Origin: Desulfovibrio aminophilus DSM 12254
Lineage (GTDB): Bacteria > Desulfobacterota > Desulfovibrionia > Desulfovibrionales > Desulfovibrionaceae
Reading direction: 5' to 3'
DNA length: 64,000 nucleotides
NCBI RefSeq assembly: GCF_000422565.1
Contig: NZ_AUMA01000017.1
Span: 1 to 64,000, forward strand
Both the position numbers and the translations under genes were made by a program. Below, in pieces: positions 24,259 through 25,676 of the stretch (position 1 is its first letter; each line of letters starts with the position of its first letter). The notes under the pieces were generated by a model that saw nothing but the letters and a program-made list of their open reading frames with translations, did not search any database and was not told the DNA's origin.

Positions 24259-24648
24259 ATGGACGAGATCACGGTCATCCACACCGACAAGGCCCCGGCC
24301 GCCCTGGGACCATACTCCCAGGCCCTGGCCTGGAACGGACTGCTCGTCCTGAGCGGCCAGACCGGCCTGGACCCGGTCACGGGCGAACTCGTTTCCGATT
24401 TCGCCGGGCAGGTCCGGCAGGTGCTGGACAACCTCGGCGCGGTCCTGTCCCAGGCAGGGGCGGGCTTCGCCGACGTGCTGGCGGCGGATGTCTTCCTCAC
24501 GGACATGGGCCGCTTCGCGGAGTTCAACGCCATCTACGCCGAGTATTTCCGGGAGCACAAACCGGCCCGGACCACGGTGGCGGTCAGCGCCCTGCCAAAA
24601 AACGGGCAGGTCGAGATCAAATTCCTGGCCCGGCTGCCCCGATCCTGA
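24259..24648 (+). CDS. ridA: RidA family enamine/imine deaminase
   Basis: A 129-residue trimeric Rid protein that hydrolyses reactive 2-aminoacrylate and related enamines released by PLP enzymes. Family hallmarks are LGPYSQAL, LSGQTGLDP and the C-terminal ARTTVAVSALPKNGQVEIKF with the catalytic Arg. Its length is typical. AGGAG precedes the ATG. The gene follows the membrane protein by 14 bases, so they are probably one transcript, which would run on into the leader of the aromatic gene downstream. Confidence 0.95.
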   Translation: MDEITVIHTDKAPAALGPYSQALAWNGLLVLSGQTGLDPVTGELVSDFAGQVRQVLDNLGAVLSQAGAGFADVLAADVFLTDMGRFAEFNAIYAEYFREHKPARTTVAVSALPKNGQVEIKFLARLPRS

Positions 24649-24698
24649 TCCGCGCCGCCGCTTGACAAGGGAGCCTCGAGAGGCGTAAGCGCTTGCTC

Positions 24699-24776
24699 AT
24701 GCAGACCCGGACCGACAGCCGCTTCTTTTTCTTCTTTTTCTTTAGCAGCGCCTGTGGTCTGGGGGTGCGCGAGTAA
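24699..24776 (+). CDS. Phe-rich leader peptide of the ADH synthase gene
   Basis: A 25-codon reading frame whose codons 9-15 (24723-24743) are seven consecutive Phe codons, alternating TTC and TTT. After the Phe run it reads SSACGLGVRE and stops. Such a run is typical of attenuation leader peptides (compare PheL), where scarcity of charged tRNA-Phe stalls the ribosome. An in-frame TTG two codons upstream (24693) is an alternative start with AGAGG 9 bases before it, a better ribosome site than the ATG has. The T/C-rich tract stands out sharply in this GC-rich sequence. Confidence 0.8.
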   Translation: MQTRTDSRFFFFFFFSSACGLGVRE

Positions 24777-24843
24777 GGTCGAAAACGAACACGAAACGCT
24801 CCCGAAGGCCGCAGGCATACCGCCCGCGGCCTTCGTCGTTTCG
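24756..24843 (+). promoter_or_regulatory. Candidate Phe attenuator: competing antiterminator and 3:4 hairpin
   Basis: CGAAGGCCGC (24803-24812) pairs with GCGGCCTTCG (24826-24835), extended by CGAAACG (24792-24798) with CGTTTCG (24837-24843). The competing stem pairs GGTCTGGGGGTGCG (24756-24769, codons 20-24 of the leader peptide) with CGCTCCCGAAGGCC (24797-24810) at 11 of 14 positions. A ribosome stalled on the Phe codons leaves the first segment free; one at the stop codon covers it. No T run follows the 3:4 stem, so the release step is uncertain. Confidence 0.7.
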
Positions 24844-24881
24844 GTCGCGGCGGATTCGGGACAATCCCCTGGGAGGCCGAC

Positions 24882-25676
24882 ATGCAACTGGGCAAATCCA
24901 TCCGCATCGAGCGCATCATCAACCGCAACAACGGACGGACCATCATCGTCCCCCTGGACCACGGCGTCACCGTGGGCCCGCTGTACGGACTCGTGGACCT
25001 TCGAGCCACCGTGGACCAGATCGCCGACGGCGGGGCCAACGCCGTGCTCATGCACAAGGGGCTGCCACGCTGCTCCCATCGCGGACGCGGCCGCGACGTG
25101 GGCCTCATCATCCACCTCTCGGCCAGCACCACCCTCTCGCCCCATCCCAACGCCAAGGCCCTGGTTGGCACGGTGGAGGACGCACTGAAGCTCGGCGCGG
25201 ACGGCGTCTCCGTGCATATCAACATGGGCGACGAAACCGAGGGCCGCATGCTGGCCGACCTGGGCCAGATGGCGGCCAAGGCCAACGAATGGGGAATGCC
25301 GCTCCTGGCCATGATGTACGCGCGCGGACCGGCCATCAAGAACCCCTACGACCCGGATCTGGTGGCCCACTGCGCCCGGGTGGCCCTGGAACTGGGCGCG
25401 GACATCGTCAAGGTGCCCTACACCGGCGACCCCGAAAGTTTCGAACGCGTGGTTGAGGCCTGCTGCGTACCGGTGGTCATCGCCGGAGGGCCCAAGATGG
25501 ACGACACGCGCAGCCTGGTCCAGATGGTCCACGACTCGGTGCGGGCCGGAGGCGCCGGGCTTTCCGTGGGCCGCAACATCTTCCAGCACGAGCAGCCCGC
25601 CCGCCTGCTGGCGGCCCTGGGCAAGGTGGTGCATGAGGATTGGAGCGTGGATCAGGCCATGGCGCTGCTGGCCTGA
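24882..25676 (+). CDS. 2-amino-3,7-dideoxy-D-threo-hept-6-ulosonate (ADH) synthase
   Basis: A 264-residue class I aldolase of the DhnA type, closely resembling archaeal MJ0400. It condenses a DKFP-type sugar with L-aspartate semialdehyde, the first step of the alternative route to 3-dehydroquinate and aromatic amino acids. IIVPLDHGV (Asp 26, His 27), GGANAVLMHKG, and the Schiff-base Lys 177 in GADIVKVPYTGD are visible, as is GGPKMDD and GRNIFQH. The next enzyme, DHQ synthase II, is not adjacent. GGGAGG precedes the ATG. The upstream leader peptide and hairpins suggest control by phenylalanine supply. Confidence 0.92.
   Translation: MQLGKSIRIERIINRNNGRTIIVPLDHGVTVGPLYGLVDLRATVDQIADGGANAVLMHKGLPRCSHRGRGRDVGLIIHLSASTTLSPHPNAKALVGTVEDALKLGADGVSVHINMGDETEGRMLADLGQMAAKANEWGMPLLAMMYARGPAIKNPYDPDLVAHCARVALELGADIVKVPYTGDPESFERVVEACCVPVVIAGGPKMDDTRSLVQMVHDSVRAGGAGLSVGRNIFQHEQPARLLAALGKVVHEDWSVDQAMALLA

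Follow-up and report, generated by a model that had tools for sequence, protein, structure and literature searches.

A short leader frame with seven consecutive Phe codons, located upstream of a gene for 2-amino-3,7-dideoxy-D-threo-hept-6-ulosonate synthase (ADH synthase) in the 64-kb stretch of DNA analyzed here (in the following, the window), is very probably a real switch that would halt transcription of this gene when phenylalanine is plentiful. In all likelihood, expression of this stand-alone ADH synthase would be set by the supply of charged tRNA-Phe via a ribosome-mediated transcription attenuator.

Leader Region, Downstream Gene, and Alternative Helices

A first-pass annotation of the window had described a 25-codon frame with seven consecutive Phe codons, which is present as described at 24699–24776 (Table 1). 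No other run of at least five Phe codons occurs in the 64 kb, both strands considered, and Markov shuffles gave an expected number of 0.0. That annotation had also named ADH synthase as the controlled gene, and the curated cutoff of TIGR01949 confirmed the assignment, as the deduced product (24882–25676) scored 394.3 bits compared to a cutoff of 299.45. Since feoB and a RidA-family gene are located upstream and a CheY-like gene downstream, this ADH synthase stands alone. The RidA-family gene (24262–24648) ends just 5′ of the attenuator promoter.

Table 1. Features of the putative attenuator and of the ADH synthase gene in the window.
Feature	Position	Strand	Remarks
−35 hexamer TTGACA	24662–24667	+	37 nt before leader ATG; additional to the first-pass annotation
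Probable −10 region TAAGCG	24686–24691	+	Poor match; spacer 18; not called by consensus scan
Leader peptide ORF MQTRTDSRFFFFFFFSSACGLGVRE	24699–24776	+	25 codons plus TAA; probably leaderless or nearly so
Segment 1	24706–24723	+	Codons 3–9; pairs with 24747–24763, Phe codons in loop (1:2 hairpin)
Control codons (seven consecutive Phe codons)	24723–24743	+	Read from sequence
Segment 2, antiterminator 5′ strand	24750–24769	+	Within leader codons A-C-G-L-G-V-R; 17 of 20 positions paired with 24797–24816
Outer extension CGAAACG × CGTTTCG around terminator	24792–24843	+	7 bp, 24792–24798 × 24837–24843
Segment 3, antiterminator 3′ strand	24797–24816	+	Overlaps 5′ arm of terminator
Terminator hairpin (3:4)	24803–24835	+	Stem 24803–24812 × 24826–24835 plus inner helix
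GGGAGG, likely ribosome-binding site of ADH synthase	24872–24877	+	From sequence; outside hairpin
ADH synthase, stand-alone Phe-type isozyme	24882–25676	+	TIGR01949

Segments 1:2, 2:3, and 3:4 of the window leader complete the classical attenuator layout. The 1:2 pairing, which had not been among the features annotated before, appears as a hairpin when the complete leader is folded to its minimum free energy. For the antiterminator, a duplex of 24756–24769 with 24797–24810 had been proposed, and its 11 paired of 14 positions were found again; its extent had to be corrected, as the same register continues outward for another 6 nt, giving a helix of 20 positions of which this duplex is the inner (3′) part. 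The outer part of this helix, GCCTGTGG × CCGCAGGC, forms the conserved core of the antiterminator and is its best-conserved piece. The perfect 10-bp terminator stem and its 7-bp extension, both noted earlier, are present. Folding of the terminator with its outer extension resulted in −33.5 kcal/mol (z −6.2), which is close to the value of the antiterminator folded alone (−34.5 kcal/mol, z −3.3).

For transcription of the element, its start site, its termination, and its tRNA dependence, we infer the following course. Transcription would begin at the leader AUG or directly beside it, with a ribosome trailing the RNA polymerase. With Phe-tRNA scarce, this ribosome would wait in the seven Phe codons and leave segment 2 free to pair with segment 3, whereby the terminator would be blocked and ADH synthase transcribed. 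With Phe-tRNA plentiful, the ribosome would reach the stop codon and cover segment 2, and segments 3 and 4 would pair as the terminator, while without any translation segment 1 would pair with segment 2, leading to termination as well.

Conservation and Covariation in the Desulfovibrionales

As a test of the attenuator, the first-pass annotation had suggested a search for conserved Phe runs and covarying stems upstream of the gene in other Desulfovibrionales, and its outcome was positive. Named GTDB contigs and whole genomes of the order together provided 195 ADH synthase sites. Upstream frames rich in Phe, Tyr, or Trp were present at 170 sites, a terminator-like hairpin came next in 158 of the 195 (122 of them non-redundant), and both helices covary. 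A strict leader detector was positive in 145 of 193 upstream regions, compared to 2 of 1128 control windows taken from these loci.

Since leaders were admitted to the alignment only with a terminator hairpin, the pair count for the terminator is partly circular; the antiterminator was not used in selection. In the antiterminator columns, standard pairs were found in 94.9% of the cells, including 48 double-change cells, and none of 500 shuffles was as good, while slid registers revealed at most 43.5% pairs. Clear compensatory exchanges were detected, namely ACCTGCGG/CCGCAGGT, GCCCGTGG/CCGCGGGC, and GCCAGCGG/CCGCTGGC, and one antiterminator double change separates L163 from L165, two closely related loci. 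Covariation was found in both mutually exclusive helices, which share a strand. One column of this strand (column 115) pairs with the leader in the antiterminator (T-A 51, C-G 33, T-G 26, A-T 4) but is often mismatched with its terminator partner (G.G 37, A.G 33), which argues that the base is kept for the antiterminator. Antiterminator duplexes formed from a leader's own strands were also more stable than those from swapped strands (−31.6 vs. −26.8 kcal/mol; 0 of 5000 permutations), which holds within context classes. The corresponding values for segments 1:2 were −24.5 (own), −19.9 (swapped), and −19.6 kcal/mol (composition-shuffled), which is a family statistic and not pair-by-pair covariation. 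Conservation of the peptide tail, A-C-G-L-G or variants of it, reflects base pairing in disguise. The leader stop is located 8–13 codons past the control codons in 112 of the 122 non-redundant leaders, a position from which a terminating ribosome would cover segment 2. Altogether, comparative sequence analysis established the leader with its control codons and its tie to the gene, as well as the two alternative helices and the covariation in each of them.

When a ribosome was masked onto the control codons, the antiterminator formed on the nascent RNA of all 158 leaders, and when it was masked at the stop codon, the terminator formed in all 158. At full length, the ground state was the terminator in 151 of 158, even with a stalled ribosome; the choice must therefore be kinetic and co-transcriptional, as in the trp and phe attenuators.

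Promoter and Leaderless Start

A TTGACA-like hexamer (at least five of six positions) precedes 148 of the 158 leaders and lies 35–40 nt before the ATG in 141 of these. In relatives aligned on this −35 box, only a TA step is kept at −10 (T 0.67, A 0.80), about 12 nt before the leader ATG, and a Shine-Dalgarno core was detected in just 26 of the 158 leaders. Based on the promoter placement and the lack of a Shine-Dalgarno sequence in most relatives, a leaderless leader is suggested, and transcription should begin at the leader AUG or within a few nt of it. A transcript starting at the leader AUG was described for trpL of Sinorhizobium meliloti (PMC7298713). A consensus scan of the window called neither promoter nor terminator, both of which it missed because the −10 region is poor and the U tract is weak.

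Amino Acids Read by the Leaders and Gene Context

The genome of the window harbors two ADH synthases. Its second copy (G000 C3) heads the genes aroB′-pheA-aroA-tyrA-trpE-G-D-C-F-B, which were named by sequence from the ORF list, and is preceded by a leader with a T6 terminator (MNFSKPQANSFFTYWYYWRTRACGHGRGAL) that reads Phe, Tyr, and Trp. The proposed Phe specificity is thus restricted to the window isozyme, as the leader of the other ADH synthase of this genome reads the three amino acids together. An aroFGH-type DAHP synthase was not found in the window genome, where the single match to TIGR01361 scored far below the cutoff, so that the two ADH synthases are likely the only entry to the aromatic pathway.

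This division was also seen among 96 non-redundant leader-bearing copies, in which Trp is read along with Phe and Tyr by 48 of 49 operon-linked leaders compared to 3 of 47 stand-alone ones, the latter mostly reading Phe or Tyr. Among the stand-alone copies that were examined as possible rule-breakers, six follow the context rule after all, since each opens a tandem pair of ADH synthases before aroB′. Tandem duplicates in this position are located at L026, L036, L121, and L131–L133, with a leader on the first copy only. The window gene belongs to a 27-row clade (98% support) in which all leaders are Phe-only or Phe-dominated, while Tyr-type stand-alone leaders fall into a clade with Solidesulfovibrio. 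Independent contrasts of leader type and context were concordant in four of four pairs on supported branches (p 0.125); with so few contrasts, the Fisher value, although strong, does not count as independent evidence. The context rule therefore suggests a function, though counting does not prove the rule.

Some stand-alone copies have no leader. A third ADH synthase forming its own clade (L152, L154, L158, L160, L162, L164, L166, and L168) occurs without one in Pseudodesulfovibrio-like genomes and relatives, and the stand-alone ADH synthase of Humidesulfovibrio (L040, L188) is instead directly preceded by a tRNA-like sequence, apparently a tRNA-Ser as judged by eye.

Related Leaders Upstream of Other Genes

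A covariance model was built from the leaders and used to search genomes. It gave exactly two full matches in the window genome, both before ADH synthases, and, within the order, matched 98 of 100 genomes. Ribosome stalling on Phe as a means of attenuation, as the first-pass annotation had it, is thus supported by the leaders, by covariation in the alternative helices, and by these matches.

In 14 of the genomes, extra matches with Phe-rich leaders (e.g., MNTNQNRFGFFFFFSFRFFRSACGLGVCN) precede a sodium:solute symporter (PF00474). Such a leader predicts a Phe-regulated, perhaps Phe-specific, symporter, i.e., a putative phenylalanine transporter in this family. The symporter leaders (L228–L235, L238–L242, and L244) come from Pseudodesulfovibrio-like and other genera and end about 240 nt upstream of the gene, which encodes a symporter of about 535 aa; L236 and L237 are ADH synthase loci. 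An orthologue with 61% identity was identified in the window genome (L248, C23:297915–299498), and no leader was seen upstream of it.

Related leaders were also detected in other orders of the phylum, where they are located upstream of ADH synthases as well as of DAHP synthases of two types, aroFGH-type and B. subtilis-type (L212, L213, L219, L222, L223, and L225). At this level, family searches identified the downstream gene for ten matches, the others were judged by eye, and some look spurious (L211, L220, and L226). A further aromatic leader (MAKKSFVFFNNYFVYYFFGFISVRGPD) was found before a gene for a PLP-dependent aminotransferase (L215:1501–2855), possibly an aromatic aminotransferase.

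It seems probable that the Desulfovibrionales place the feedback on aromatic entry in leaders, with duplicated ADH synthases each carrying an attenuator for Phe, Tyr, or Phe, Tyr, and Trp, with a Phe-reading copy before a sodium:solute symporter that would be a Phe transporter, and with leaderless transcripts; elsewhere in the phylum, related leaders before DAHP synthases would fulfill the same purpose.

Weak U Tract and Alternative Explanations

The missing T run after the terminator stem had been regarded as a weakness from the start, and rightly so: while the hairpin is strong with respect to the requirements of an intrinsic terminator, the tail TCGTCGTTT is a weak, degenerate U tract within 24833–24843. 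Most relatives possess a tract of T5–T8, most other terminators seen in the genome of the window carry longer T tails, and the sole sampled congener, a sister species, shows nearly the same weak tract as the window. The element could thus terminate less well here than in its relatives. It is possible, if unlikely, that the family is real but that the degenerate tract of this genus has left a decayed attenuator with poor termination and little regulatory effect now. However, the element has kept its Phe run, both helices, and its −35 box intact, and the congener shares them in nearly identical form. In addition, the very stable hairpin possesses a matching outer stem, and broken U tracts were also found in some other leaders of the family (e.g., L047, L122, and L056).

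The weak tract would also fit a translational attenuation, in which access to the ribosome-binding site of ADH synthase would depend on which of the alternative helices has formed. We consider this very unlikely, as neither helix includes this site, which lies about 30 nt past the hairpin, and clear T runs follow the stem in relatives. Even less probable is a reading without attenuation, in which a functional small protein would be made from the frame, or the TTC/TTT run would be a mere pyrimidine-rich stretch. Leader peptides of Sinorhizobium can indeed act in trans (PMC7298713), but base pairing accounts for the conserved A-C-G of the peptide tail, which covaries with the terminator arm, and paralogous leaders carry Tyr (TAT/TAC) or a Phe/Tyr/Trp mix in place of the run, so that the amino acid is kept and not the pyrimidines. 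A chance Phe run near a hairpin, for which nothing was found in favor, is practically negligible and already refuted by the comparative evidence, given the detector counts in upstream and control regions and just two full model matches in the window genome, both at ADH synthases.

Comparison with Known Systems

The transcription attenuator proposed here resembles the leader-peptide attenuators of pheA (pheL) and pheST (pheM) of enterobacteria, represented in Rfam by Phe_leader (RF01859), in its Phe-run leader peptide, its 1:2, 2:3, and 3:4 helices, and its logic. It differs in that it controls ADH synthase and appears to be leaderless. In the window region, RF01859 remained without a match up to an E-value of 10, and the best-scoring relative (L093, 30.6 bits) stayed below the gathering score of 55. 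No other Rfam family fits the window RNA either, whether at the gathering threshold or by E-value. In the attenuators of ilvGMEDA and thrA, several amino acids are read in one leader; the operon copy of the window genome is likewise multi-product, though for aromatic instead of branched-chain amino acids, while the window leader reads Phe only. E. coli possesses separate first-step isozymes, AroF, AroG, and AroH, which answer different aromatic products by allostery and by TyrR/TrpR. Specialized isozymes are common to both cases, but in the Desulfovibrionales the specialization apparently works via leader codons; our results point to these rather than to allostery or repressors. The mechanism and the suggested start at the AUG resemble those of proteobacterial trp attenuators, including the leaderless trpL of S. 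meliloti (PMC7298713), from which the window element differs by Phe instead of Trp codons, by its target, and by its sequence.

The earlier remark that no case of attenuation was described on this pathway holds for the openly searchable literature, in which we found no attenuator on the ADH synthase pathway or in Desulfovibrio. The element is also not reported in surveys of delta-proteobacterial regulation (PMC545781), premature terminators (PMC2965389), and actinobacterial attenuators (PMC1262725). Its nearest reported relative by target is the uORFC-13-1 motif before aroF in Acholeplasma, a Phe-coding uORF followed by a terminator (PMC8632094). Both precede a first-step aromatic enzyme, but the target in Acholeplasma is a DAHP synthase, and RNA and phylum are different.

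The attenuator would provide a concrete control point for the alternative (ADH/DHQ synthase II) bacterial entry to the aromatic amino acids, for which no described regulation in bacteria was found in the literature searched. RNA-seq of D. hydrothermalis showed that the ADH synthase-aro-trp cluster responds to pressure as a single block, and an attenuator is not mentioned in that study (PMC4162548). Attenuators distributed across the order may account for this regulation of the ADH synthase-aroB′-pheA-aroA-tyrA-trp block, which was reported without a mechanism. Overall, the mechanism is known from pheA/pheST and trp, the target pathway is new, and the order-wide division of labor among isozymes is unusual.
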